This document shows positions 32,524 to 52,038 of a stretch of DNA of 64,000 nucleotides, in pieces. This stretch comes from Nesterenkonia sp. Act20 (GTDB lineage: Bacteria > Actinomycetota > Actinomycetes > Actinomycetales > Micrococcaceae). Both the position numbers and the translations under genes were made by a program. Position 1 is the first letter of the stretch. Each line of letters starts with the position of its first letter. The notes under the pieces were generated by a model. That model did no database searches and was not told where the DNA came from. It saw nothing but the letters and a program-made list of their open reading frames with translations. Location: contig NZ_JADPQH010000001.1 of the NCBI RefSeq assembly GCF_019173455.1, positions 1,766,391 to 1,830,390 on the forward strand, given 5' to 3'.

Positions 32524-33853
32524 TCTCCGAAGCTCGCCGCCGCCGTCACGGCTCGGGCGCGTGGGCTCCGCCGCCGCTGGGCTGAGCTCGGTCGGATCGG
32601 TGCTTCTGGGACGGTCAGCCCGCGCCGTCTCGAAGCTCCGCGGATCGGGCGGATCGGCCTTTCCCGGCCTGGTCGTGGAAAAGATCGACCCTCATTTCCT
32701 CGCCAGGACGCTGCGCCGGCTGCCGCGAGGTGTCATCGTGGTCTCCGGGACCAACGGAAAGACCACCACCACCAAGATGGTCGTGGAGCTTCTCCGCGGT
32801 CAGGGCCTGAAGGTCTTCACCAACCGCAGCGGCTCAAACTTCACCCGCGGCGTCGTCGCCTCCATAGTGGGCGAGGTCCGGCTCAACGGTCGGCTCGATG
32901 CAGACATCGCGGTGCTGGAGCTCGACGAGGCGCATGCGGTGCATTTCGTCAAAGCTGTGCGGCCGGACCACAGCCTGCTGCTCAATGTCATGCGCGACCA
33001 GCTCGACCGATTCGGCGAGATCGACACCACGGCGGGCATGCTCCGTGCCATCGCGCAGCACACCGATCAGGGTGTGGTGCTCAACCGCGAAGATCCGCGG
33101 GTCCGTGCCATCGCGCACAGCCTCGAGAATCAGCGTGTCGACTACTTCGGGCTCAGCGAATCGCTGCTCAGCCACTTCCCCAGTGACGATGACTTCCATG
33201 CCGGTCCTGCCGCGGCGGCCGACCGTCCCGACGCGGACGTGGTCCTTGAGGAGCTCACCGAGGGGGGCGGCCGATTCACGCTCGACGGTGAGACCATCAC
33301 CACGACACTCACGGTCAACGGCGCCTACAACACCTTCAACGCGGCCGCCGCACTGGCCGTGGTCCGCCAGGCGCTGGGCGAGACGGTGGACTCGGCGGCG
33401 CTGATCGCCTCCCTGGCCAAGGTGTCTCCCGCGTTCGGCCGCGGGGAGAGCCTCACGGTGCAGGGCCGATCACTGGACCTGGTGCTGGTGAAGAACCCGT
33501 CCGGCTTCCGGCTGGGGCTGAGCTCCTTCGCCTCATCCGGGGTGGCCACCATGATCGCCATCAATGACAACTATGCCGATGGCCGCGATATGAGCTGGCT
33601 CTGGGATGTGGAGTTCTCCTCGCTGGCCGAGGAGGGCGTGCGGATGATCTCGGGAGTGCGTGCCTACGACATGGCGCTGCGGCTGAAATACGACGACGTC
33701 GACTTCGATGCCGTGGAGCCTGACCTCCAGGCGGCGCTGACCCGGTTCCTGGACGACAATCCTGGCCAGCCGGCCCGCATCTTCTGCACCTATACCGCGA
33801 TGCTGGCGCTCCGGAAGCAGCTCAGCGCCTACACCGAAGTGGAGGCCTTCTGA
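32513..33853 (+). CDS. murT: Lipid II isoglutaminyl synthase, MurT ligase subunit
   Basis: A 446-residue Mur-ligase-like enzyme that, with GatD, amidates the D-glutamate of lipid II to D-isoglutamine. The ATP site GVIVVSGTNGKTTTTK and the central LELDEAHAV and LLNVMRDQLDRFGE segments are clear. The C-terminal MurT domain follows (about 340-440). Known MurTs carry a Cys4 zinc ribbon in the central domain; this protein has one Cys in total (ARIFCTY), so the ribbon is absent. The start is the ATG at 32513 inside the pknB end; the frame continues upstream in low-complexity DNA only. Confidence 0.9.
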   Translation: MSSDLRSSPPPSRLGRVGSAAAGLSSVGSVLLGRSARAVSKLRGSGGSAFPGLVVEKIDPHFLARTLRRLPRGVIVVSGTNGKTTTTKMVVELLRGQGLKVFTNRSGSNFTRGVVASIVGEVRLNGRLDADIAVLELDEAHAVHFVKAVRPDHSLLLNVMRDQLDRFGEIDTTAGMLRAIAQHTDQGVVLNREDPRVRAIAHSLENQRVDYFGLSESLLSHFPSDDDFHAGPAAAADRPDADVVLEELTEGGGRFTLDGETITTTLTVNGAYNTFNAAAALAVVRQALGETVDSAALIASLAKVSPAFGRGESLTVQGRSLDLVLVKNPSGFRLGLSSFASSGVATMIAINDNYADGRDMSWLWDVEFSSLAEEGVRMISGVRAYDMALRLKYDDVDFDAVEPDLQAALTRFLDDNPGQPARIFCTYTAMLALRKQLSAYTEVEAF

Positions 33854-34605
33854 TGACCGGCGCAGCCAAACCCATCCACGTGCTCCAGCTCTACCCCCGA
33901 GACATGAACATCTACGGGGACTTCGGCAATGCGCTGGTGCTCACACGACGCCTGCAGTGGCGCGGGTACGAGCCGATCCTGCACAGCTACGACCCGGAGG
34001 ACGAGTTTCCCGAGGAGGTCGACCTTCTCATCGGTGGAGGTGGGCAGGACAGTGGTCAGGACAAGATCCAACAGGACCTGCTGCGCCTCGGTGACAGGCT
34101 CCACGAACTGACCGAGCGAAACACCCCGATGCTGATGATCTGCGGCCTCTACCAGCTCTTCGGGCATTCCTTCCGCACCCGAGAAGGCCGCGAGATCAAG
34201 GGGATCGGTGTCCTGGACCTGCACACCGAGGGGACCGACACCCGGCTGATCGGCAATGTGGTCGCCGAATCCGGGCAGTTCGGGGAGATCCTCGGCTATG
34301 AGAACCACTCCGGCCAGACTTACCTGGGCGAAGGCGTGCAGCCGCTGGCGCGCGTCACCAAGGGAGAGGGCAACAACGCTCGAGACTCCCATGAGGGTGC
34401 CCGCTATAAGAATGTCCTCGGCAGCTACCTGCATGGTTCGCTGCTGCCCAAGAATCCGGCGATCGCCGACTTCCTGATCGCCACCGCCGTGCAGAACCGC
34501 TACGGCGAGGATGTCCAGCCAGCCATCGAGCCTGCGGGCTCCGCGCAGCCCATCGATGAGCTGACCCGTCAGGCGCGCATGCACGCCACCAAGCGGCCGC
34601 GCTAG
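33853..34605 (+). CDS. gatD: Lipid II isoglutaminyl synthase, GatD glutaminase subunit
   Basis: A 250-residue class I glutamine amidotransferase of the cobyric-acid-synthase (CobQ) type that supplies ammonia to MurT. The nucleophile Cys lies in MLMICGLYQLFG, and the catalytic His lies in GSYLHGSLLPKNP. The N-terminus VLQLYPRDMNIYGDFGN is characteristic of GatD. The ATG shares a base with the murT stop (TGATG), so the two subunits are made together. It closes the operon that began at fhaA and stops 13 bases before the convergent crgA. Confidence 0.93.
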   Translation: MTGAAKPIHVLQLYPRDMNIYGDFGNALVLTRRLQWRGYEPILHSYDPEDEFPEEVDLLIGGGGQDSGQDKIQQDLLRLGDRLHELTERNTPMLMICGLYQLFGHSFRTREGREIKGIGVLDLHTEGTDTRLIGNVVAESGQFGEILGYENHSGQTYLGEGVQPLARVTKGEGNNARDSHEGARYKNVLGSYLHGSLLPKNPAIADFLIATAVQNRYGEDVQPAIEPAGSAQPIDELTRQARMHATKRPR

Positions 34606-34618
34606 GAGGAGCTGCTCG

Positions 34619-34915
34619 TCACTTCCACCGCATGGTCATGAAGAAGCCGATCATGATGATGCCGAAACCGATGACGACGTTCCAGCCGCCCACGGACTGA
34701 ATCGGAAACGCGCCCTGGGTGATGTACCAGACGATCAGCCAGAGCAGACCGAGGATCATCAGACCGATCATGGTGACGCGGTACCACATGGGCAGCGACT
34801 CGTCCTCGAGCTCGAGATCCTTCAGCTCCATGGGCTCGGCATCGTTGAGCGGAGACTTCTTGGCTGCCGTCTTCTCGTTCTTCCTACGATTCCTGCGCTG
34901 CTTGGACTCTGCCAC
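34619..34915 (-). CDS. crgA: Cell division protein CrgA
   Basis: A 98-residue protein with a basic, Lys-rich cytosolic N-terminus and two membrane helices (about residues 45-65 and 75-93), ending in MRWK. It belongs to the actinobacterial CrgA family, which joins the divisome and interacts with FtsZ and cell-wall synthases. The start is the GTG at 34915, with GAGGAG 10 bases upstream; the frame is open further upstream but that part does not look coding. Position near pknB is conserved in actinobacteria. Confidence 0.9.
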   Translation of the reverse strand: MAESKQRRNRRKNEKTAAKKSPLNDAEPMELKDLELEDESLPMWYRVTMIGLMILGLLWLIVWYITQGAFPIQSVGGWNVVIGFGIIMIGFFMTMRWK

Positions 34916-35060
34916 GTCGATTCGGCTCCTCTGGATCTCGCACTGACCTCGGTTCGGTATTCTGTTCCCACAACCGAGCACACGCGGCGCCGGCCCTGGT
35001 CTGCGCGCCATTCTATCCGTCGAACTGTGATGCTCGCCCCACCTGCCGTTCGGAGGACTC

Positions 35061-35810
35061 ATGTCGGGACACCGCCGCGGCGCAGGCGCCCGCGTGCTGG
35101 GCGTCACCGGCGAGCTGCTGATCACCCTGGGCGTGCTGGGACTCCTCTTCGTGGTGTGGGAGGTGTGGTGGACCGGATTGGACGCCAACCGCGATGCGCA
35201 GGCGCTCGAGGAGGAGTTTCACAGCCGGATCGAACAGGTGGACCCCGGTGCGGACTCCAACCCCGCGCCGCCGGACTGTCAGGAGCTGCCCGCGGGCGGA
35301 GCTGCAGCGTGCCCGGAGCAGATGTCCGCGGTGGACAGCGGCGCCATCGCGGTGCTCTACGCGCCGGCCCTCGGCTCGGACTGGTCTGCTCCGGTGCGCT
35401 CCGGGGTTGATGACGCGACGCTGAACAGCGGAGGCGTGGGTCACTATCCCGACACGCAGCTTCCCGGCGAGGCAGGAAACTTCGCCGTGGCGGGGCATCG
35501 ACTGACCTATGGCGACGTCCTCCGAGACCAGGATCAGCTTGCCGCCGGGGATGAGATCTACGTGGAATCTCCGGACGGCTACTACACCTATGAAGTCACC
35601 GAGAGCTATGTGGTGCTTCCCGAGCAGTCCGAGGTGATCCTCCCGGTTCCGGGCGAACCGGACGCGGAAGCGGATCGCTCTCTGCTGACGCTGACCACCT
35701 GCCACCCACTGTTCTCGAATCGCGAACGGCTGATCACCCACGCTGAACTCGTGAACTGGTCTCCACTGTCCGCGCAGGCGCCCGCCGCCGTCGCCCAGGG
35801 AGGTTCCTGA
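35061..35810 (+). CDS. srtE: Class E sortase
   Basis: A 249-residue transpeptidase that attaches surface proteins to the cell wall. An N-terminal membrane helix (about residues 14-36) is followed by the sortase barrel. The catalytic triad is visible: His in VAGHRLTYGD, Cys in LTTCHPLF and Arg in SNRERLI. An insertion containing two Cys (PPDCQELP and AACPEQM) near residue 75 is unusual and might form a disulphide. The LPATG-tailed ice-binding protein at 13748-15121 is a possible substrate, though class E enzymes often prefer LAxTG. A 67-residue membrane protein follows immediately. Confidence 0.9.
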   Translation: MSGHRRGAGARVLGVTGELLITLGVLGLLFVVWEVWWTGLDANRDAQALEEEFHSRIEQVDPGADSNPAPPDCQELPAGGAAACPEQMSAVDSGAIAVLYAPALGSDWSAPVRSGVDDATLNSGGVGHYPDTQLPGEAGNFAVAGHRLTYGDVLRDQDQLAAGDEIYVESPDGYYTYEVTESYVVLPEQSEVILPVPGEPDAEADRSLLTLTTCHPLFSNRERLITHAELVNWSPLSAQAPAAVAQGGS

Positions 35811-35811
35811 G

Positions 35812-36015
35812 ATGTACGCCTGGCTCTTCCGCCATCTTCCCGGGCCCCTGGCCGTGCAGATCCTGCTCAGCCTGCTCATTCTGGCCGGTATCGTATTTGT
35901 CCTGATGCAGTTCGTCTTCCCGTGGCTGAGTCAGTACAGCCCGCTCAACGATTCCACACTCGAAACGATGACCTCCTCGGCATGTGGCCGAGGCGAAGGG
36001 ACCCCCCATGAGTGA
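35812..36015 (+). CDS. Small membrane protein between sortase and trpG/pabA
   Basis: A 67-residue protein with the start MYAWLFRHLPGP, one or two hydrophobic segments (about residues 12-42) and a short polar tail. Small proteins with this type of N-terminus occur between the sortase and glutamine amidotransferase genes in actinobacteria; their function is not established. It starts 1 base after the sortase stop and overlaps the next gene by 8 bases, so it is part of one transcript. Confidence 0.78.
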   Translation: MYAWLFRHLPGPLAVQILLSLLILAGIVFVLMQFVFPWLSQYSPLNDSTLETMTSSACGRGEGTPHE

Positions 36016-36655
36016 GACCTCCTCCGCAGCTCGGATCCTCGTGGTCGACAACTACGACAGCTTCGTCTACACGCTGGTCGGGTACCTTCGTGAGCTCGGC
36101 GCCGAGACGACCGTGATCCGCAACGACGACCTGACAGTGGCCGAGGCCAAGAAGCTCGCTGCGGAACACGACGGCGTGCTCATCTCCCCCGGCCCGGGCA
36201 CCCCCGGTGAGGCTGGCGTGTCGGTAGAGCTCATTCGCTGGTGCGCGGAGGCGCAGGAGCCGATGCTCGGAGTGTGTCTGGGCCATCAGGGCCTGGGCGA
36301 GGCCTTCGGAGCGACCGTGACGCACGCCGAGCAGCTCATGCACGGCAAGACCTCACCGGTGACCCACACGGGCCACGCCTCCTTCGCGGGACTCCCCGAG
36401 ACCTTCGTGGCCACGCGGTACCACTCGCTCACCGTGGCGCCGGAGACCATTCCGGAGATCCTCGAGGTCACCGCCTCCACCGAGGACGGAGTGATCATGG
36501 GGTTGGCCCACCGGACCGCACCGCTGTGGGGGATGCAGTACCACCCCGAATCCGTGCTCACCGAGGGCGGATACCGGATGCTGGGCAACTGGTTGGAGTC
36601 CATGGGCCAGCATGGCGCCGCCGAGAAGGCCGCCCAGCTGAACCCGATCCGCTGA
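36008..36655 (+). CDS. Anthranilate/aminodeoxychorismate synthase glutaminase component
   Basis: A 215-residue class I amidotransferase. The nucleophile elbow is GVCLGHQGLGEAFG, the His/Glu pair lies in MQYHPESVLTEGG, and the N-terminus ILVVDNYDSFVYTLVGYL is typical of TrpG/PabA. It provides ammonia from glutamine to a chorismate-binding partner for folate or tryptophan synthesis. No partner gene is nearby, so PabA versus TrpG is not decided; the Mycobacterium gene at this locus is called trpG. GAAGGGA precedes the ATG at 36008. Confidence 0.9.
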   Translation: MSETSSAARILVVDNYDSFVYTLVGYLRELGAETTVIRNDDLTVAEAKKLAAEHDGVLISPGPGTPGEAGVSVELIRWCAEAQEPMLGVCLGHQGLGEAFGATVTHAEQLMHGKTSPVTHTGHASFAGLPETFVATRYHSLTVAPETIPEILEVTASTEDGVIMGLAHRTAPLWGMQYHPESVLTEGGYRMLGNWLESMGQHGAAEKAAQLNPIR

Positions 36656-36683
36656 GAATCTGGGGCTCTGAGAATCTGGGGCT
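36652..36683. repeat. Direct tandem duplication of 16 bases at the end of the amidotransferase gene
   Basis: CTGAGAATCTGGGGCT occurs twice in succession, followed by a partial third copy (CTGAG). The first copy contains the TGA stop codon of the upstream gene, so each copy repeats the stop in the +1 and following positions. Confidence 0.9.
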
Positions 36684-36732
36684 CTGAGGCTCCCGCACCC
36701 AGCAACGCTCCACGACCCTCCTGACGCAGATG

Positions 36733-36772
36733 CACGAAGCGGACCTGGCGTGATCGCCAGGTCCGCTTCGTG
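36733..36772. terminator. Perfect 18-bp hairpin between convergent genes
   Basis: Arms 36733-36750 and 36755-36772 pair without mismatch around a TGAT loop. It lies between trpG/pabA and the convergent gene ending at 36850. No T-run follows, so termination would rely on stem strength. Confidence 0.8.
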
Positions 36773-36849
36773 TGCTGGGCCGCTGCCGAGGTTCTGCCTC
36801 CTGCAACGCCCGTGCACCTAGGTCATCTGCGTCCTACAACGCGCTCGAC

Positions 36850-37761
36850 TCAGGTGGCCGGCTTCGGTGAAGGAACGTTGTTGCCCTTGGCCTCGCCGGC
36901 GTCCTGGGCATTGACGTTGGTCTCTCCCGAGGGCCCAGCCTTGGTCTCCGGGGAGCCGGAAGGCTTGGGTGCGGCCGACGTGGTCTGCGGAGCCGAGCTC
37001 GCTGGCTTCGCGGGAGCCGCCGGAGTTCCCTGCACGGATGGCTTCTCAGCAGAAGTCACCGGCTTGGGCGCCGCCGTCGAAGAGGTGGCCGGACGGGTGA
37101 CCGGCTCCGGCTTCTTCCACGGGTCTTCCACAGGCTGGCTGGCGCGCCACGCGGCGACGCCTGCCGTGACGGTGGCAGCCACGAGACCGAAGATCAGCAG
37201 TCCCTTCTTGCGGCTGTTGGAACGCTGCTGCTTCTTCAGAGTCTTCGCTGTGCCCTTGGCGTAGCGCTCGGAGCTCTTGCGCAGCTTCTTGACGATCTTC
37301 TTATCGCCAGTCGCCTTGATCAGCGCCTTCTCCACCCGAGGATCCAGCTCGGCCCGATGGATGAGCTTCGCGGTCTTGTCCGCGTAGCCACCCAGACGCG
37401 CCGACGTCGCCGGAACATACTCCGAGGTGAACTGAGTCTTGGCGGTGTCGTACTTGGCGAGGACCTTGGCCACCTCGGCGCGAGCCTGAGGGGGGAGCCT
37501 GTCGTACTGCGAGGCGATTCCCCCACCGGCGACCGAGGAGTACTGCTTGATCTTCTGGCCCGCCACTGAGGCGCCGTCGTTGACTGCCGTCAGTGCACGC
37601 CCGGAGGCGTCCTGCACCTTCGGAGCGCTCTTGCGGTAGGTGCCTTCGGCCCAATCTGCGGCCGCGCCCAGTTTGGGGGCGGTCCAATCACGTGCGGTCT
37701 CGACTCCCGCGAGCACGACGTGCTCCCAGGAGTGGTTCCGCTTCTTCTTCTTGCCGAACAT
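36850..37761 (-). CDS. Uncharacterised single-pass protein with Lys-rich body and Pro/Ala/Ser tail
   Basis: A 303-residue protein with a basic start (MFGKKKKRNHSWEHV), an Ala/Lys-rich helical region to about residue 185, one membrane helix (about 187-207, after SRKKG) and a Pro/Ala/Ser/Thr-rich tail of about 95 residues. The layout resembles DUF5324-type actinobacterial proteins, but I cannot confirm the family. GGAGGA lies 6 bases before the ATG. It is divergent from the cyclophilin gene and probably monocistronic. Confidence 0.75.
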   Translation of the reverse strand: MFGKKKKRNHSWEHVVLAGVETARDWTAPKLGAAADWAEGTYRKSAPKVQDASGRALTAVNDGASVAGQKIKQYSSVAGGGIASQYDRLPPQARAEVAKVLAKYDTAKTQFTSEYVPATSARLGGYADKTAKLIHRAELDPRVEKALIKATGDKKIVKKLRKSSERYAKGTAKTLKKQQRSNSRKKGLLIFGLVAATVTAGVAAWRASQPVEDPWKKPEPVTRPATSSTAAPKPVTSAEKPSVQGTPAAPAKPASSAPQTTSAAPKPSGSPETKAGPSGETNVNAQDAGEAKGNNVPSPKPAT

Positions 37762-37898
37762 GCATGTCCTCCGAATCCGGATCGGTTGCTCACATCAGCT
37801 TACGTGGTCTGCCGGTGACCTGCTATGGCACGGCCCATCTCCCCCCATCATCCCCCGAGCTGGCACCTCGCGCCACCAATAGTGAGACAATGGGGCCC

Positions 37899-38432
37899 AT
37901 GAGTGCTATCGCAACACATAAGGCAACTATCCGAACTTCCAAGGGCGAGATCGTGGTCGAGCTCTTTGGCAACCACGCACCCAAGACTGTGGACAACTTC
38001 GTGGGTCTGGCCACCGGCGAGCAGGAGTGGACCCACCCGGAGTCGGGCGAGAAGATGGTCGACACTCCGCTTTACAGCGGCACAGTGTTCCACCGCATCA
38101 TCTCCGACTTCATGATCCAGGGCGGAGACCCGCTCGGCCTCGGCGTCGGGGGACCCGGCTACAAGTTCGGCGATGAGATCCACCCCGAGCTGGACTTCAC
38201 CGCGCCGTACAAGCTGGCCATGGCCAACGCCGGCCCCGGCACCAATGGTTCTCAGTTCTTCATCACCTCCGTGGCGACCAACTGGCTCCAGGGCAAGCAC
38301 ACCATCTTCGGCGAGGTCAGCGACGCAGAGTCACAGAGAGTCGTTGATGCGCTGAACACCGTGCCCACCGACAACCGGGATCGCCCGAAGGAAGACGTCG
38401 TCATCGAGAAGATCGACGTCGAGAAGCTCTGA
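37899..38432 (+). CDS. ppiA: Cyclophilin-type peptidyl-prolyl cis-trans isomerase
   Basis: A 177-residue cytosolic cyclophilin that speeds proline isomerisation during folding. The core motifs are VFHRIISDFMIQGGDP (catalytic Arg, Phe), MANAGPGTNGSQFFIT and GKHTIFGEV. The start is the ATG at 37899; another in-frame ATG is at 37890 and the frame is open back to 37593 without homology. No good ribosome binding site is seen and GACAAT lies 7 bases upstream, so the transcript may be leaderless. The gene order ppiA-rhomboid near pknB is common in actinobacteria. Confidence 0.9.
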   Translation: MSAIATHKATIRTSKGEIVVELFGNHAPKTVDNFVGLATGEQEWTHPESGEKMVDTPLYSGTVFHRIISDFMIQGGDPLGLGVGGPGYKFGDEIHPELDFTAPYKLAMANAGPGTNGSQFFITSVATNWLQGKHTIFGEVSDAESQRVVDALNTVPTDNRDRPKEDVVIEKIDVEKL

Positions 38433-38442
38433 GGATCCTAGA

Positions 38443-39315
38443 ATCACCGCAACATTCTGTCCGCAGCATCCGGACAGGCCGGCCTCTGTGCAGTGTCAGC
38501 GCTGCAGCCGGCCGGCCTGTCCGGAGTGCCTGCGGGAGGCCCCCGTCGGGTTCCAGTGCGTGGACTGCCTCGAGCGCGCACGCAGCGAGTGGCAGCGCCG
38601 CCGCCCCACTGCTCGTTCGCAGTTCGGTGCAGTGATCCGACCGGGGCAGCGCCCCATCGTCACCTTCACCGTGATCGGGCTGTGCATAGCCGTCTATGTC
38701 CTGCAGCTGCTCAGCGACACGGTCACCGCGTCCCTCTGGTACGCCCCGCTGCAGACCTCCGCCTGGGTCTTCGAGCCCTGGAGGATGCTCACCTCTGCGC
38801 TGGTGCATTCACCGTCCAGCGCCATGCACCTGCTCTTCAACATGTTCGCCATCTGGTTCGTGGGCCGCGCCATCGAGCCCGCCCTGGGCCGCGCCCGCTA
38901 CGGTGCCCTGCTGCTGCTCTCCGCACTTGGCGGCTCCGTGGCCGTGCTGTTCCTGACTCCCGCGATGACTCCCACGCTGGGTGCCTCCGGTGCCGTCTTC
39001 GGCCTCTTCGGAGCCCTGTTCATCCTGATGCGCGCCACCGGGGCGCAGACCGGGGGGATTCTCACCCTGATCGCGATCAACGTGGTGATCAGCTTCGTCA
39101 TCCCTGGCATCTCCTGGCAGGGCCACTTCGGCGGCCTGGTGACCGGAGCGATCTGCGCGCTGCTGCTCTCCAAGGTTCCGCGCGGCCGCACCGGTGACGC
39201 GCAGAGGAACGCCCGCCGCCGCTCGCTGTGGCAGGGCCTGGGGCTTCTCGGGGTCGCCGTGCTGCTGATCGCGCTGACCGCCCTGGGCATGCAGCTGGTC
39301 AACCCGTACGCGTGA
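38443..39315 (+). CDS. Rhomboid-family intramembrane serine protease with N-terminal zinc ribbon
   Basis: A membrane protease with six or seven hydrophobic segments. The catalytic Ser is in TLGASGAVFG, the His in WQGHFGGLVTG, and the HLLFNMFAIW segment in helix 2 is typical. The first standard start is GTG at 38488, but in-frame codons before it encode FCPQHPDRPASVQCQRC, the first half of a zinc ribbon whose second half (CPEC, CVDC) follows. No ATG, GTG or TTG exists upstream in this frame. ATC at 38443, with GAGGA 7 bases before it, would give ITATFCPQ as the start. I extended the gene to that codon; 38488 is the conservative alternative. Confidence 0.75.
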   Translation: MTATFCPQHPDRPASVQCQRCSRPACPECLREAPVGFQCVDCLERARSEWQRRRPTARSQFGAVIRPGQRPIVTFTVIGLCIAVYVLQLLSDTVTASLWYAPLQTSAWVFEPWRMLTSALVHSPSSAMHLLFNMFAIWFVGRAIEPALGRARYGALLLLSALGGSVAVLFLTPAMTPTLGASGAVFGLFGALFILMRATGAQTGGILTLIAINVVISFVIPGISWQGHFGGLVTGAICALLLSKVPRGRTGDAQRNARRRSLWQGLGLLGVAVLLIALTALGMQLVNPYA

Positions 39316-39335
39316 GCGAACGCCCTGTGCAGAAC

Positions 39336-39442
39336 TATTCCACAGTTTTCCCGGTAGTTCACAGATGCCTGTGGATACCGCTCTGACCTGACGAAATACA
39401 CGCATGTAACTTATGCACACTGTGGATAAACCCTGTGGACAG
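39336..39442. other. Cluster of DnaA-box-like sites remote from oriC
   Basis: Five sites in 107 bases: TATTCCACA (39336), TGTGGATAC (39370), TTATGCACA (39411), a perfect TGTGGATAA (39421-39429) and TGTGGACAG (39434). The third and fourth form an inverted pair one base apart. The region lies between the rhomboid gene and the convergent CNNM protein gene and encodes nothing. Confidence 0.7.
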
Positions 39443-39474
39443 CTTTGTCTGCTCCAGGTCACGAACCAAAGATA

Positions 39475-39500
39475 CCGGACCCACGCGTCGGTGGATCCGG
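39475..39500. terminator. Imperfect hairpin between convergent genes
   Basis: CCGGACCCAC and GTGGATCCGG pair with one mismatch around a 6-base loop. It may terminate either neighbour. There is no T-run. Confidence 0.4.
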
Positions 39501-39529
39501 CATCTCTGTCCTGGTTGAGCCAGGGTCTG

Positions 39530-40606
39530 CTACTGTCGCGCGGCGGCGCCCTGCTGGCGGACCTGGGCAGCGGTTGATCCGTTCCACTGCTCCTCCATCG
39601 TGGGCCACATCCGCTTGAGGATGTCGTTCCAGGTGATCGCCCCGGCGAGTCCGGTGTCTGAATACACGACCGCGAGCTGCTCGCCAGCCTCACGCATGCT
39701 CTGGAAGGCCTGATAGACCGAGGCACCCATGGGAACCACCAGTGCCGGCCGTGCGAGTTCGCTGACCGGGTGCGTCGGCTCCACGGTCAGGGTGTCGCGC
39801 ACATGGACCACCAGCGGGTCTGTGCCCGTCTCCGGAATGATCAGCACCCGAAGATGCCCCGTCCTGCGGGCCGCCGCCTGCACATCAGCGGCGGTGGCAC
39901 CGGCGGGGACCGTCGTGGTCTCCTGCCGGGTGCGCCCCGCGATGACGTCGTCCACTGTGAGAGTCTCCAGGTCGATGACCCGGGAGATCTGCGAGGCAGA
40001 GGCCTCGTCCAGGGCACCGGTCTGCGTGGAGTGCTCCACCAGATGCCTGATGGTCTCGGAGTCGTACCCGCCGGCTGCCGCACGATCCACCGGGGTGATC
40101 CCGCTGGCCGAGACAAGCCGGTTGGCAATGCTGTTGATCCACAGCAGCAGGGGTCTGAAGACCCAGAGGATGATCTGAGCAGGCAGTGCCACGAGCTTCG
40201 CGGCTCGCTCGGGATGAGCGATGGCCCAAGACTTCGGAGCCATCTCCCCGACCACCAGGTGCAGGAAGGTCATCAGCAGCAGAGCCAGGGCGAAGGCCAG
40301 GGCGTCCGCAGCCCAGTAGGGCAGGCTCCAGGATTCGAAGATCGGCGTCAGCGCGTAGTGCACCGCCGGCTTGCTAACAGCACCGAGCGCAAACGTGCAG
40401 GCGGTGATGCCCAGCTGTGCACCCGCGAGCATGACGGTGAGCTCGTTGAGCCCGCGCAGGGCTGCACGTGAGGAGCGGCTGTGCTCTGCCGACTCCTCCA
40501 ACCGGTGCCGCCGAGCGGCAAGCAGCGCGAACTCAAGGATCACGAAGAAGGCGGAGATGATGATGATGCCGACAGTGGCCACCAGTGGAATCAGCCAGTC
40601 GCTCAT
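39530..40606 (-). CDS. CNNM/CorC-type membrane protein with CBS domains (short form)
   Basis: A 358-residue protein with a DUF21 (CNNM) transmembrane domain (about residues 1-190, starting with a long hydrophobic helix) and a pair of CBS domains (about 205-335). The CorC/HlyC C-terminal domain seen in its neighbour is missing. Proteins of this family are linked to magnesium or other divalent cation export, although many carry the old label hemolysin. It overlaps the upstream paralogue by 4 bases, so the two are co-translated and may form a heterodimer. Confidence 0.87.
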   Translation of the reverse strand: MSDWLIPLVATVGIIIISAFFVILEFALLAARRHRLEESAEHSRSSRAALRGLNELTVMLAGAQLGITACTFALGAVSKPAVHYALTPIFESWSLPYWAADALAFALALLLMTFLHLVVGEMAPKSWAIAHPERAAKLVALPAQIILWVFRPLLLWINSIANRLVSASGITPVDRAAAGGYDSETIRHLVEHSTQTGALDEASASQISRVIDLETLTVDDVIAGRTRQETTTVPAGATAADVQAAARRTGHLRVLIIPETGTDPLVVHVRDTLTVEPTHPVSELARPALVVPMGASVYQAFQSMREAGEQLAVVYSDTGLAGAITWNDILKRMWPTMEEQWNGSTAAQVRQQGAAARQ

Positions 40607-41964
40607 CGTTCCTCCTCAGACTCTTCGCCGAGGCGAAGGTGGACGGATTCTGGGACATGTCGATCGACGCTGAGCACCGTCACGTCGAGCCAGCGGCGCG
40701 GTGGTGAGGATTCGGCGTAGTCCGCCGGATCTGCCGGCAGCTCCACGCGAACCTCCTGCCCTTCGGTCAGCAGCGAGCCCTCCTGGGCCATCAGCAGGCC
40801 GGAGAGGGTCTCATAGTCGCCCTCGGGGAAGCTGCGTCCGATGACGCGCTCCACCTCATCAAGGTGCAGATCACCATCCACGCGCCAGAAGTTCTCTTCC
40901 ACGGGTTCGATCCCGCTCGGCGCCTCGTCGTCGTGCTCATCGGTGATGTCGCCGAGGATCTCCTCGGCCAGGTCTTCCATGGTCACCACGCCGGTGAAGC
41001 CACCGTATTCGTCGATGACACAGGCGAGCTTGGCATTGGCGTCGCGCAGCGTGCGCACGGCATCGGGGAGCGGCATCAGTGTGGGCACGATGACCGGTGT
41101 GCGCATGAGCTCAGACGCGGGCAGGTCATCGGAGAGGTCGCTGCCGAGCAGGTCCACCATATGTACGACTCCGACGGGCTCATCGTGGGTGTCCACCACG
41201 GGGTAGCGGGTATGCTCCTCCGCCATCAGGGTGCGGATCTCCCCCAGAGTGGTGTCGGGATGGATCAGACCGGTGCGGGAGCGGGGAACCATCGCGTGTT
41301 CCACGTCGTGCTCCGGGAAGTCCAGGATCCGATCCAGCGTCAGGTACATCTCTTCGGCGAGGTCGCCGCTCTCGTGCGAGCTGGAGACGATGTGTTCCAG
41401 ATCCTTCGCGGTGGCACTGGACTCGACGTCGTGGACCGGCTCGATCCGCAGCAGCTTTAGCAGCGCATTGGCCGCGAAGTCGAAGATGGCGATGAGCCAG
41501 CCGAACGCACCGAGGTAGAACTTGGTGGAGCGAGCCAGCCCGAGAGCCAGCGGCGTGGGGTTGGCGATCGCATAGTTCTTCGGAAAGAGTTCCCCGAAGA
41601 TCATCTGCACCACGGTGGAGACCGCCAGCGCAATGATCGTGCCGATGGTGATGCCCAGTGCTGCAGGGATGCCGACGCCGCCGAGCAGCTCGCCCAGACC
41701 TTCGCCCACCAGCGGCTCCGCGACATAGCCGACCATGAGGCCGGTGACGGTGATGCCGAGCTGGGCACCCGAGAGCATGAACGAGGTGCGTCCGGTGACA
41801 TCGAGTGCGCGCTGAGCGGACTTGTCGCCGCCGGCGGCCATGGAGCGCAGACGATTGCGATCCACCGACATGTAGGCGAACTCCTGGGCCACGAAATAGC
41901 CGTTGGCCGCGATGATCAGCAGGATCAGCACAATGCCGAGGAGCAGGAGCAGGAGGGCGATCAC
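40603..41964 (-). CDS. CNNM/CorC-type membrane protein with CBS and CorC domains (long form)
   Basis: A 453-residue protein. The N-terminal helix and DUF21 domain (about residues 1-190) contain GAQLGITVTGLMVGYVAEP and IFGELFPKNYAIANP. Two CBS domains (about 205-330, with TRYPVVD and DEYGGFTGVVTMEDLAEEILG) bind nucleotide, and a CorC/HlyC domain (about 350-435) ends the protein. The likely role is Mg2+/Co2+ transport or its regulation. It is first in a two-gene operon with the shorter paralogue. The start codon is GTG. Confidence 0.88.
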   Translation of the reverse strand: MIALLLLLLGIVLILLIIAANGYFVAQEFAYMSVDRNRLRSMAAGGDKSAQRALDVTGRTSFMLSGAQLGITVTGLMVGYVAEPLVGEGLGELLGGVGIPAALGITIGTIIALAVSTVVQMIFGELFPKNYAIANPTPLALGLARSTKFYLGAFGWLIAIFDFAANALLKLLRIEPVHDVESSATAKDLEHIVSSSHESGDLAEEMYLTLDRILDFPEHDVEHAMVPRSRTGLIHPDTTLGEIRTLMAEEHTRYPVVDTHDEPVGVVHMVDLLGSDLSDDLPASELMRTPVIVPTLMPLPDAVRTLRDANAKLACVIDEYGGFTGVVTMEDLAEEILGDITDEHDDEAPSGIEPVEENFWRVDGDLHLDEVERVIGRSFPEGDYETLSGLLMAQEGSLLTEGQEVRVELPADPADYAESSPPRRWLDVTVLSVDRHVPESVHLRLGEESEEER

Positions 41965-42188
41965 CGGGCGACCACCATTGCGGCGCTGCGGCGGTCGGTA
42001 TGACCTTCATTCGCAGTACTCGGGGGACGGTGTCGTCGGCGATCAAGTACTGCGCTTGGTAAGTCGTACACCTGTGTGAGGCACCTCTTCAGTCGTGTGG
42101 ATGGCTGCTCATGGCAAATCATAGCCGAACGGGGTTCGGAGCCGGATGGTCTGCACAGCACCGAAGCCGGCCCCGCCGATGCAGAGAG

Positions 42189-42229
42189 AAAAACGGCCCC
42201 TCCCACCAAGAGGTGCGAGGAGCCGTTTT
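42189..42229 (-). terminator. Terminator after tRNA-Ala
   Basis: Read on the minus strand, the outer stem AACGGC/GCCGTT continues inward through CCTC/GAGG and CACC/GGTG with single mismatches, and GCCGTTTTTCTC supplies a U-tract. It lies 22 bases after the tRNA. Confidence 0.78.
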
Positions 42230-42250
42230 CTTCAGCGTGTTCTCATCCGG

Positions 42251-42323
42251 TGGAGGCAAGGGGACTCGAACCCCTAACCCCCTGCTTGCAAAGCAGGTGC
42301 GCTACCAATTGCGCCATGCCCCC
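42251..42323 (-). tRNA. tRNA-Ala (anticodon TGC)
   Basis: A 73-base cloverleaf with acceptor GGGGGCA/TGCCTCC including the G3-T70 pair that identifies tRNA-Ala. The anticodon loop is TTTGCAA, the T loop TTCGAGT, and the discriminator is A. The CCA end is not encoded. It is downstream of tRNA-Ile, as in other actinobacteria. Confidence 0.95.
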
Positions 42324-42340
42324 AGATTTTCCTCAGGCTA

Positions 42341-42454
42341 TCAGACGGAATCTGTGGCCCGAGACCAAACTTTTCGAGCATCCTCAGCCCGTCGCCACTG
42401 GCGATAACCGAGGATTCCCGCCACCGAGAAAGCCATCAGCACAATGCGCTTCAT
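42341..42454 (-). CDS. DLW-39-family small protein
   Basis: A 37-residue ORF between the tRNA-Ile and tRNA-Ala genes. The product starts MKRIVLMAFSVAGILGYRQW and continues with a charged segment ending in WSRATDSV. A short hydrophobic N-terminal helix plus an acidic/basic tail with a conserved Trp is the pattern of the DLW-39 family found next to gyrA in actinobacteria. AGGAGGAAGCG lies directly before the ATG, a strong ribosome binding site. The function is unknown. It is co-transcribed with the tRNAs, probably from the gyr operon or a tRNA promoter. Confidence 0.82.
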   Translation of the reverse strand: MKRIVLMAFSVAGILGYRQWRRAEDARKVWSRATDSV

Positions 42455-42476
42455 CGCTTCCTCCTGGAGTCCGGGG

Positions 42477-42550
42477 TGGGCGTAGGAGGACTTGAACCTC
42501 CGACCTCATCGTTATCAGCGATGCGCTCTAACCGCCTGAGCTATACGCCC
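42477..42550 (-). tRNA. tRNA-Ile (anticodon GAT)
   Basis: A 74-base cloverleaf with acceptor GGGCGTA/TACGCCC, D-stem TAGCTCAGG, anticodon loop CTGATAA and T loop TTCAAGT. CCA is not encoded. It lies downstream of gyrA and the DUF3566 gene, the position of ileT in Mycobacterium. Confidence 0.95.
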
Positions 42551-42677
42551 CCGACACCTCATAAAAGGTGCGTCATCCTCATCAGGACGACCACTACACA
42601 TTACATCGCTGACCTCGGCCGGACCAAATCGACGGCCTGCCGACCGGCGCAGGACAGCGCCCGTCCCAGGAGCAGAC

Positions 42678-43316
42678 TCAGTCGTCGGTCAGCGTGACCC
42701 CGACCCCGCCCACCAGGGAGGCGGAGAGGTTGTAGAGCACAGCGGCCAGCATGGAGAGGACCGTCAGCAGCACCACATTGATCACCGCGATGATCGTGGC
42801 GAAGGAGGCGACCTGTCCGATGGTGACCAGCTCCTCCACCCGGAAGGTCCCCCCGCCGCCCTCGGTGCCGAGGATCTGGCCGAGCAGCTCATTGACCCGG
42901 TTGAAGATGCCGGTCACATCCATCACCGACCACAGGGTGACCGCAGCGACCACGGTCATGATCCCGAGCGCCACCGAGAGCAGGAAGCTCATCTTCAGCA
43001 CCGACCAAGGGTCGACCTTGGAGATCAGCAGCCGCGCCTTGCGCACCTTGGCCTTGGGCGTGGGTCTCACGAGCCCCGGTTGAGGGCGGGACCCGGTCGG
43101 ACGCTGACCCGCCACGGGGCGAGTCTGCGGCGGACGCGAACCCGCCGTGGGACGAGCACCTGCGGTGCCCGCCGGAGCATTCTGCGGTCGATTCGCCGTG
43201 GTGGCCCCCCCAGCTGCCTGGGCGCGGGGCCGCGGCGCGGGGAACCGGTTGGCCGGACGCGCCGCGGAAGAGCCCGATTGGCTCCCTGAATTACCTGCGC
43301 CGTTGCTTGCGCTCAC
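42678..43316 (-). CDS. DUF3566 membrane protein downstream of gyrA
   Basis: A 212-residue protein. The first 100 residues are disordered (Ala/Pro/Gly/Arg-rich, with repeated RPxxG). The DUF3566 domain follows: KARLLISKVDPWSVLKMSFLLSVALGI, with two membrane helices (about residues 120-145 and 178-205) and an extracellular VNELLGQI stretch. It corresponds to Rv0007 of Mycobacterium and sits 12 bases after gyrA. The role is unproven. The start is GTG. Confidence 0.9.
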   Translation of the reverse strand: MSASNGAGNSGSQSGSSAARPANRFPAPRPRAQAAGGATTANRPQNAPAGTAGARPTAGSRPPQTRPVAGQRPTGSRPQPGLVRPTPKAKVRKARLLISKVDPWSVLKMSFLLSVALGIMTVVAAVTLWSVMDVTGIFNRVNELLGQILGTEGGGGTFRVEELVTIGQVASFATIIAVINVVLLTVLSMLAAVLYNLSASLVGGVGVTLTDD

Positions 43317-43328
43317 TGAAGACCTCCA

Positions 43329-46004
43329 TCAGGCGTTCTCTCGGTCCGCTTCATCTCGGTCCGCTTCATCAGGGACCAACGCTACTGCATCGGCGGAGTC
43401 TGGGCTGTCAGCCGAGCCTGGGCCGGCCTCCGGTGTCTCGGATTCTGGTGCCTCAACCGCCTCAACCTCACCGGTCGCGGCCAGCGCGACTCCGGAGCTT
43501 CGTGCCACCTTGAGGATCCGATCCTTCTTGCGTGGCTTCGCGAAGATGACCCCCATGGTGTCGCGTCCCTTGGAGGGTACGCCGGAGACGGGCGAGCGCA
43601 CCACCATGCCGGACTCCATGACGACGAGCACCTCGTCGTCGTCCTCGACGACCATGGCACCGACCAAGTCGCCGCGATCCTCCACCAGCTTGCCGACCTT
43701 GATTCCCAGGCCTCCGCGGCCCTGCACCCGGTACTCGCTGACGTCGGAGCGCTTGGCGTAACCGGCCTCGGTCACCACGAAGACATAGGAATTCTCGGTG
43801 ATCACATCGGCGGCGAGCAGCTCGTCCTCCTCGCGGAACTTCATGCCGGTCACACCCGAGGTGGCACGTCCCATGGGACGCAGCGCCTCGTCGGTGGCGG
43901 TGAAGCGCAGCGACTGGCCCTTGCGGGAGACCAGCATCAGGTCGTCCTCCGCGGAGACGAGCTTGGAGGAGACCAGCTCGTCATCTTCACGCAGGTTGAT
44001 GGCGATCACACCAGCCTGACGGGGGGTGTCGTAGTCGGTGAGCACCGTCTTCTTCACCAGGCCGCGCTTGGTTGCAAGCACCAGGTACGGGGCGTCCTCG
44101 TAGGTGCGCAGCGGCAGCACCCCGGCGATGTACTCATCGGGCTGGAAGGCCACGATGTTCGCCACATGCTGGCCCTTGGAATCGCGGCCTGACTCCATCA
44201 GGTCGTAGCACTTGGTGCGGTAGACCCGTCCGAGGTTGGTGAAGAACAGGATCCAGTGATGCGTGGTGGTCACGAAGAAGTGCTCCACGATGTCATCGGT
44301 ACGCAGCTGGGCTCCTCGGACGCCCTTGCCGCCGCGGTGCTGGGCCCGGTAGTTGTCGATCTTGGTCCGCTTGACGTAGCCATCGCGGGTGATCGAGACG
44401 ACCACATCCTCCTGGGGGATCAGATCCTCCATGGACATGTCACCGTCGTAGCCGAGCTGGATATGCGTGCGTCGGTCATCGCCGTGCTTGTCCACGATCG
44501 TGTCCAGCTCGGCGCTGATGATCCGGCGCTGCCGGTCCTCAGAGGCGAGGATGTCCTGGAAGTCGGCGATCATGGTCATCAGCTCGTCGTACTCATCCTG
44601 CAGGCGCTGCCGCTCAAGAGCGGCGAGTTTGCGCAGCTGCATATCGAGGATGGCCTGGGCCTGATCGTCGTCGATGTCCAGCAGAGCCTTGAGGTTCTGT
44701 CGGGCCTCTTCGACGGTGGAGGAGGCACGGATCGTGGAGATCACGCGGTCCAGGTCGTCGAGCGCCTTGAGCAGACCCACCTTGATGTGGGCCTCGCGCT
44801 GAGCCTTGTCCAGGCGGAACTGGGTGCGCCGGACTATGACGTCGATCTGATGGGTCACCCAGTGGTGCACGAAGGCGTCCAGGCTCAGCGTACGTGGAAT
44901 GCCGTCCACCAGGGCAAGCATGTTCGCGGAGAAGTTCTCCTGCAGCTGGGTGTGCTTATAGAGGTTGTTCAGGACCACCTTGGCCACGGCGTCGCGCTTG
45001 AGCACGACGACGAGGCGCTGGCCGGTGCGTCCGGAGGACTCGTCGCGCAGATCCGCGATGCCGGAGACCTTGCCGTCCTTGACCAGCAGTGCGATCTTCC
45101 GGGCCAGGTTGTCGGGGTTCGCGTGGTACGGCAGCTCGGTGACGACCAGGCAGGTGCGGCCCTGGATCTCCTCGACGTTGACCACTGCGCGCATGGTGAT
45201 CGAGCCGCGGCCGGTGCGGTAGGCCTCTTCGATCCCGCGGGTGCCCAGGATCTGCGCTCCGGTGGGGAAGTCGGGTCCCTTGATCCGCTGCAGCAGCGCC
45301 TCGAGGAGCTCCTCGCGGGAAGCCTGCGGGTTCTGCAGGTACCACTTCACGCCATCGGCGACCTCGCGCAGGTTATGCGGAGGAATATTAGTGGCCATAC
45401 CCACCGCAATGCCGGAAGAGCCGTTGACCAGCAGGTTCGGGAAGCGAGACGGCAGGACGACGGGCTCCTGCTGCTTGCCGTCATAGTTGTCCTGGAAGTC
45501 GACGGTGTTCTCGTTGATGTCCCGGACCATCTCCATGGCCAGCTGGGCCATCTTGGTCTCGGTATAACGCGGGGCGGCAGGGCCGTCGTCGCCGGGGTTG
45601 CCGAAGTTGCCCTGGCCGGTGGCCAGCGGGTAACGCATGACCCAGTCCTGGATCAGCCGGGACAGGGCGTCGTAGATCGCCGAGTCGCCGTGCGGGTGAT
45701 AGTTGCCCATCACGTCGCCGACCACGCGCGCGCACTTGTTGAAGGAGCGGTCCGGGCGGTAGCCGCCGTCGTACATCGCGTAGAGCACGCGACGGTGCAC
45801 GGGCTTGAGCCCGTCGCGGACGTCGGGCAGCGCGCGGCCGACGATCACGGCCATCGCGTAGTCCAGGTAGGACCGCTTCATCTCGGTCTGGAGATCGATC
45901 TGCCGGATCCGGTCGTGGGTCACGATGTCGTCGACGACGACGCCCTCCACGGCCTCACTGGGACCGCCCTGCGGATCCTGGGGTTCTTCGGTGTTGTCAC
46001 TCAC
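43329..46004 (-). CDS. gyrA: DNA gyrase subunit A
   Basis: An 891-residue breakage-reunion subunit. The quinolone-resistance region reads [15 protein letters not shown], with Ser and Asp at the usual sensitive positions. The catalytic Tyr is in [11 protein letters not shown]. Six C-terminal beta-pinwheel blades follow, including the GyrA box-like [12 protein letters not shown] segment. An acidic C-terminal tail of about 60 residues is longer than in most gyrases. It lies 70 bases after gyrB. The start is GTG. Confidence 0.97.
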
Positions 46005-51384: not shown

Positions 51385-52038
51385 TGATCCCTGCCTTCCT
51401 TGTTGAGCTTCGACAGCCGGGTCGGTGAATGTCAAGCATCTGCGGGTTGTGTCGAGTGTCGAGCTTACCTGCAATCGAACCGCAGAAGCTAGCAAGGATG
51501 GAGACCAGCACCATATGAGCCTCGAAGGAGGTGTTCGCCCACAAGATCTGGGATTTTCGGTGAGGCGTCGGCTTCGGAGCGTGACTGTTCTCTGTCATTT
51601 AAAGGGTTAAGGGTCAGAAGTGTTAACAGGTGTTGTGGAAACTGTGGATAAGGCACTGCTTGTCGGTGTCTGGCCGGATCCCGTTGTGCACCATGCGGTG
51701 GAGGATTCTCGTGTGGGCTGTGTACGGGCAGTGGAGATTTCAACAGCTTCATTGTTGGCTCTCCCCAGGAAAACCCCGCTAGTCCCCAATGTCAGCGCTT
51801 TGTGCACCGCATACTGCACCGTTTTATCCACAGCTGTTAACGAAAACCTGGAGAACTCCACCGAACCCTGTGGATATGTGGGAAAACCTGTGGAGATACG
51901 GTGGCAGGGGTACCGCTGATCCCAAGCTCTATGCGGAATGACATGCGTGTGAGTTGTGGAGCACTGCTTTGTCCACAGCTGTTCACCCAGCGTCGTGATG
52001 CCGTGTGATGCTTCGGTCGAAGGTCAACCGCGGGTGAG
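51385..52038. other. oriC: Chromosomal replication origin (oriC)
   Basis: The 654-base dnaA-dnaN interval contains perfect DnaA boxes TGTGGATAA (51643-51651), TTATCCACA (51824-51832) and TTGTCCACA (51969-51977). A one-mismatch TGTGGATAT lies at 51869, and weaker sites occur near 51634, 51688, 51877 and 51889. AT-richer stretches around 51595-51630 (ATTTAAAGGGTTAA and TGTTAACA) may be the unwinding element. No ORF here is supported. It also carries the dnaN promoter. Confidence 0.92.

Follow-up and report, generated by a model that had tools for sequence, protein, structure and literature searches.

We describe a small intergenic element of Nesterenkonia sp. Act20 in which a cluster of DnaA boxes runs into a palindrome that resembles the published operator of the actinobacterial regulator McdR. 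The reading that we favour, with a probability of roughly 0.55, is that this is an old cis-element of the Actinomycetes at which DnaA would bind a triplet of boxes and McdR the palindrome, thereby tuning DnaA near oriC. The place, anatomy, conservation, neighbourhood and motif identity of the element were established by computation, starting from the 64,000-nucleotide stretch of DNA that we refer to as the window and by whose positions the features below are numbered.

The cluster is located in a 214-bp gap that extends from the stop of a rhomboid-family gene at 39315 (38488-39315, plus strand; Pfam PF01694), a neighbour that is kept in relatives, to the stop of a CNNM/CBS-domain gene at 39530 (39530-40606, minus strand; Pfam PF01595), which converges on the element. 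Approximately 12 kb separates it from the dnaN-dnaA gap (51496-52038, no strand assigned), in which a box scan found two perfect DnaA boxes and which is presumed to be oriC. The core opens with the palindrome AAATACA-CGCA-TGTAACT (39394-39411, no strand assigned), which agrees with the published McdR operator, AATnACAnnnnTGTnATT, at 10 of 12 fixed positions and has base 39411 in common with DnaA box I (TTATGCACA, 39411-39419, plus strand). Box I is followed, after 1 nt, by the inverted box II, a perfect TTATCCACA (39421-39429, minus strand), and after another 4 nt by box III (CTGTCCACA, 39434-39442, minus strand), which is parallel to box II; all three boxes, recognized by sequence, are conserved in the alignments of relatives. 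An upstream DnaA box with one mismatch, GTATCCACA (39370-39378, minus strand), precedes box I by 41 bp. Further upstream are two weak DnaA-box-like 9-mers, TTCTGCACA (39326-39334, minus strand), with two mismatches to TTATCCACA, and TATTCCACA (39336-39344, plus strand), also with two mismatches, together with a very weak one, TAGTTCACA (39355-39363, plus strand). On the other side of the core, a hairpin at 39470-39505 was recognized by eye between the convergent genes; it is present in close relatives too and resembles a shared terminator, and it was not called by the promoter/terminator scan. The cumulative GC skew of the window reaches its minimum at approximately 39-44 kb (39001-44000) rather than in the dnaN-dnaA gap near 51.5 kb.

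A sequence-only reading of this DNA had reported five boxes, one of them perfect, with a tight inverted pair between convergent genes about 12 kb from oriC, and these positions were confirmed. It had overlooked the palindrome at 39394-39411 and the class-wide link of the element to crgA and rhomboid genes. In the window, the pattern TTWTNCACA occurs four times against 0.28 expected, a number that none of 100 shuffles reached, and two of the four matches lie in the cluster and two in the dnaN-dnaA gap. Across the 2.93-Mb genome (two contigs) there are 20 matches, as compared to 15 for the reversed pattern. Thus, the box is not enriched genome-wide, and it is its clustering that is striking: the closest pair in the genome is that of the cluster (10 bp start to start), followed by the two oriC boxes, 181 bp apart, and by a TTTTCCACA pair beyond the window with a separation of 211 bp. 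The last of these is an inverted DnaA-like pair (G000:C1:1852006-1852225) that lies approximately 34 kb beyond the dnaN-dnaA gap.

Comparison with related genomes had been set in advance as the test that could refute the cluster. This test was run, and the cluster was not refuted. Of 30 congeneric genomes, 27 contain the rhomboid gene, whose product in the window is 90% identical to a homologue from an uncultured Nesterenkonia and 83% identical to that of N. sandarakina. A profile search, using a genus profile built from 24 regions downstream of the rhomboid gene, found the element in the same 27 genomes, with E values below 1e-11 and no more than 1.4 kb from the rhomboid gene; the three genomes that lack the element have no rhomboid match either, their completeness being 65, 79 and 82%. 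Three loci (L013, L015 and L024) fell outside the 24-locus alignment, for which the scan reached 420-480 bp past the rhomboid gene, and their genomes were found positive by the profile. In 6 of the 27 congeners, the element is turned round with respect to the rhomboid gene. Among the 24 aligned loci, pairwise identity is 0.85-0.90 over boxes I and II, a figure that is partly fixed by the pattern with which the loci were picked, as are the column counts of the element alignments. In bins free of the pattern (-50 to 0 and +20 to +30), identity is 0.48-0.74 versus 0.26 by chance, and it falls to the chance level (0.26-0.30) beyond approximately 90 bp upstream and 40 bp downstream of box I. The upstream box is found at its exact register, with at most two mismatches, in 18 of the 24 loci.

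Within the family, a model of the element (R1) gave matches at E≤0.01 in 292 of 295 genomes, with all 32 genera represented, and some genomes carry two copies approximately 230-400 bp apart. Box I is degenerate (TTATTAACA) in many of the family's other genera, in which boxes II and III stay near TGTGGATAA. When 40 stretches around family matches were read, a rhomboid gene was found in 34 and crgA as well in 16, the usual order being ppiA, rhomboid, element, crgA. The ppiA-rhomboid segment of the window (33853-42550) is flipped as compared to most family stretches, so that CNNM genes come after the element, which has remained next to the rhomboid gene.

A second model (R2), built from 55 family elements, found matches at E≤1e-3 in 89 of 159 genomes from the order and in 137 of 216 from the class; the other 79 class genomes gave no such match, and several weaker matches span the boxes only. 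The neighbourhoods that we read were those of top-scoring or hand-picked matches, and 45 of the 46 best-scoring loci from other families adjoin rhomboid, ppiA or crgA, with one adjoining gyrB. In several cases, the R2 match is located 10-36 kb into a genome assembled as one contig, or gyrA is found in the stretch that was read, which is consistent with proximity to the origin if such contigs are assumed to start at dnaA. In three genomes of one family (f3), the R2 match is not at crgA: it adjoins dnaA in L277 and is close to the end of a contig in L279 and L280. The palindrome may be part of some origins too. Outside the class, matches were only weak: 30 of 149 genomes in a phylum sample that includes class members, with a best non-class E value of 2.7e-6. 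Among the named contigs, the cluster was present in five Nesterenkonia contigs, Nocardioides gilvus and Boudabousia marimammalium, and absent from two Streptomyces and two Rhodococcus contigs that had been recruited through weak rhomboid matches; these absences probably reflect a different rhomboid gene.

The 3' side of crgA was examined in 29 genomes that we selected, of which 10 had an R2 match and 19 had none. At least two boxes were present within 300 bp after crgA in 21 of the 29 genomes versus 1 of 232 control windows, and at least one box in 27 genomes versus 10 of 232, a contrast that is partly one of non-coding with coding DNA, since the control windows came from the same loci and were mostly coding. 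Two of the 29 flanks have no box within 300 bp. The genomes without an R2 match contributed to these counts, with at least two boxes in 13 and at least one in 17 of the 19. At least 9 of the 12 McdR-motif positions were matched within the same distance in 17 of the 29 genomes, as compared to 0 of 232 control windows, which were again mostly coding, so that this contrast too is in part between non-coding and coding DNA. Both the box count in the crgA flanks and the strict-palindrome count given below are independent of the pattern used for picking loci. In all seven genomes of the family f37 (6-11 Mb), the boxes are kept after crgA and the palindrome is lost, with 6-8 of 12 McdR positions matched (L192, L193, L195, L196, L198, L199 and L201). 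Most of these loci carry an extra pair, such as TTGTGCACA and TTGTCCACA, approximately 130-190 bp further on. From the conservation of sequence, spacing and neighbourhood, it is strongly supported that the DnaA-box cluster is real and selected rather than a product of chance.

The palindrome consensus was obtained from our alignments before the published operator, AATnACAnnnnTGTnATT, was found, and it equals that operator. McdR, an actinobacterial MerR-type regulator (Rv1830, ResR), is described in PMC9040748 as binding this sequence at whiB2 in mycobacteria, where the operator arms and the spacer length matter and the spacer sequence does not. According to the same paper, whiB2, MSMEG_0833 and MSMEG_5468 are among five McdR DIP-seq peaks, and when McdR is overexpressed, division is blocked and the copy number of origin-proximal DNA rises. 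McdR/ResR is further described, in PMC10336103, as restricted to actinobacteria, across which it is conserved, and as tolerating a few mismatches. All 24 aligned Nesterenkonia elements agree with the motif at 10-11 of 12 positions and have the 4-nt spacer; a score of 10 of 12 was not reached by any of 34,544 random windows from the same loci.

A strict form of the palindrome, AATNACACNNGTGTNATT, occupies 41 sites, distributed over 35 of the 246 genomes of the class that were scanned, versus 0 for the reversed-pattern control. The strict form is absent from the genome of Nesterenkonia sp. Act20, whose copy in the window has 10 of 12 positions, and full matches to AATnACA-N4-TGTnATT occur in other genomes of the class. 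The crgA/rhomboid element accounts for 18 of the 41 sites and WhiB-family genes for 12; one site lies beside dnaA, one beside jag and 9 elsewhere, the last including sites with NlpC/P60, L,D-transpeptidase and CHAP genes as neighbours. Judged by the neighbouring genes cofD, fbiB or wbbL, 11 of the 12 whiB sites are of the whiB2 type. Palindromes upstream of or beside whiB2-type genes were seen in several families (L243, L247, L248, L251, L256, L257, L288, L291, L292, L294, L296, L303, L304, L308, L315, L317, L322 and L324). From these sites, the McdR-whiB2 link that was published for mycobacteria may be much older. Single palindromes were also seen near cell-envelope, phoH and cytochrome oxidase IV genes (L254, L289, L320, L321, L318 and L300), the envelope genes being those for an M23 peptidase after ftsX, an NlpC/P60 protein, an L,D-transpeptidase and a CHAP protein; by their sequence, these are possible further targets of McdR.

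In the arrangement that we favour, DnaA would occupy the triplet of boxes I, II and III through the inverted pair 1 nt apart and the third box 4 nt on, and a dimer of McdR would sit on the palindrome. Interference between DnaA and McdR is predicted because the palindrome runs into box I. The site would lower or time the amount of active DnaA near oriC, either by titration or by a change of nucleotide state like that at datA or DARS, and McdR on the overlapping palindrome would hinder or reshape the binding of DnaA, so that initiation would be released while McdR represses whiB2 and division. We infer DnaA and McdR binding at this element, their mutual interference and the resulting change in initiation from the anatomy of the site, and the published effect of McdR on copy number could also be a consequence of blocked division. 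A stronger version, in which McdR directly displaces or rearranges DnaA through the same operator that it uses to repress whiB2, and the element would serve as a replication-division switch throughout the class, is a tentative proposal that we hold to be possible and somewhat doubtful.

Alternatively, the element could act on DnaA by titration or nucleotide state, in the manner of datA or DARS, without McdR, the palindrome modulating this action or serving otherwise. The loss of the palindrome from all f37 loci that keep the boxes is consistent with such a site, as are the box order (> < <), which is that of E. coli DARS1, and the existence of other DnaA-box clusters outside oriC. However, the palindrome stands at a fixed distance from the boxes, and runs into box I, both in the family and in the class loci that we read, which suggests a joint function, and we consider a McdR-independent site rather unlikely. 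The titration role put forward by the sequence-only reading is possible on the sequence evidence under either arrangement, and its proposal of a selected cluster outside oriC was borne out by the conserved sequence, spacing and neighbourhood. Its other suggestion, that the cluster is a second or vestigial origin, found no support, the conserved part being approximately 110 bp that hold a palindrome and a few boxes between convergent genes. DnaA boxes near oriC, best model matches beside dnaA or at a contig end in the three f3 genomes, and a skew minimum in the window that is nearer to the cluster than to the dnaN-dnaA gap would agree with a second origin. Against this, the element is short and enclosed by convergent genes, the dnaN-dnaA gap has boxes of its own, and base composition did not mark the element out as an unwinding region, a weak argument given that the lowest-GC stretches are alike in both gaps; we regard an origin here as highly improbable. 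To a chance cluster, for which the single perfect box in this genome's copy and the lack of genome-wide enrichment might be cited, we give virtually no credence, because it is refuted by the conservation and place of the element.

The palindrome might instead be a site of the response regulator MtrA, with whose M. tuberculosis motif it shares a 7-4-7 layout. In both S. venezuelae and M. tuberculosis, MtrA binds oriC, dnaA and dnaN; its targets in the former species also include whiB, and the cell-wall hydrolase genes near some palindromes resemble MtrA targets. In contrast to the element, which is an inverted repeat, known MtrA sites are direct repeats with an 11-bp period, and the column match was 0.74 for the inverted versus 0.27 for the direct arrangement, in an alignment that was itself made with a symmetric motif. 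MtrA scored over its family cut-off in 19 of 20 genomes in one set and 11 of 20 in another, the nine failures of the second set all belonging to a single family, f4, and the one failure of the first set being among these nine. These nine f4 genomes, which had been chosen for an R2 match, all keep the palindrome at 10-11 of 12 positions. MtrA had been our initial reading of the palindrome and was dropped on two grounds, that the MtrA-less f4 genomes keep the site and that the published McdR motif was matched; we now consider it improbable. The genomes with no protein over the MtrA cut-off are nine of ten in f4 (G404, G391, G336, G417, G443, G304, G365, G378 and G430) and provide a natural test for MtrA-dependent sites. 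Slightly less probable still is that the element regulates or terminates the genes on either side, or encodes a small RNA, as the short intergenic gap and the adjoining hairpin at 39470-39505 might suggest. However, the neighbours converge, which places the element at their 3' ends, the scan called neither a promoter-like nor a terminator-like site, 6 of 27 congeners carry the element in reverse orientation, and the sole Rfam match was far under its cut-off (16.5 of 120 bits, E value of 0.22).

Returning to DnaA and McdR as the proposed joint ligands of the element, one of its closest likenesses is to E. coli DARS1, which also has three non-coding DnaA boxes, with box I facing box II and box III parallel to box II. 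The DARS1 spacers are 5 and 3 nt whereas those of the element are 1 and 4 nt, and DARS1 is flanked by bioD and uvrB, which run in parallel, and does not lie 12 kb from oriC; no palindrome was noted there. The primer sequences given in PMC4585315 are consistent with the bioD-uvrB gap being DARS1. Since the box order is that of DARS1 and the spacers differ, we do not class the element as a DARS, in a comparison that covers the DARS1 core on one side and, on the other, an element known here by its sequence. The datA locus of E. coli and clusters in Bacillus subtilis (PMC4451416) likewise consist of DnaA boxes outside oriC. Unlike datA, which lies more than 450 kb from oriC, depends on IHF for its action and is characterized by an IHF site that lies beside its boxes 2 and 3 or separates them, the element has an McdR-like palindrome and no known IHF-type site. 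The McdR/ResR operator at whiB2 is an inverted repeat of the same form, AATnACA-N4-TGTnATT, but it is found in a promoter around the start site, whereas the element lies between convergent genes, runs into a DnaA box and has 10 of 12 positions. In Streptomyces coelicolor, the DnaA-box clusters H69, D78 and H24 surround oriC, and one of them limits initiation.

A mycobacterial counterpart of the element may have been met before. A 2020 study by Hicks reportedly mapped DnaA sites across the M. tuberculosis genome, is said to have found that a recurrently mutated one adjoins Rv0010c, and reportedly made neither a link to McdR nor a class-wide comparison. We take Rv0010c to be located beside crgA, and the 'cryptic interaction site' of that study to be the site beside crgA, near the counterpart of the element; if so, binding of DnaA at the mycobacterial counterpart has already been shown. 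Genes of both proteins appear elsewhere in one context: dnaA, Rv0010c and Rv1830 are listed in one table of isoniazid-linked candidate genes (PMC8613195). In the accessible main text of PMC9040748, neither crgA nor DnaA is mentioned, crgA was not found in that of PMC10336103, and the accessible portions of PMC9040748, PMC10336103, PMC8613195, PMC9480834 and PMC9392950 connect McdR with neither DnaA binding nor crgA. The literature that we searched yielded no joint treatment of the crgA-rhomboid intergenic region and DnaA.

The coupling of initiation to division in actinomycetes is little understood, and the element offers one small candidate site at which the two processes might meet. McdR is essential in mycobacteria and is tied to antibiotic resilience. 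If DnaA and McdR do act together at this element, the rise in origin-proximal copy number under McdR overexpression would have a direct explanation.
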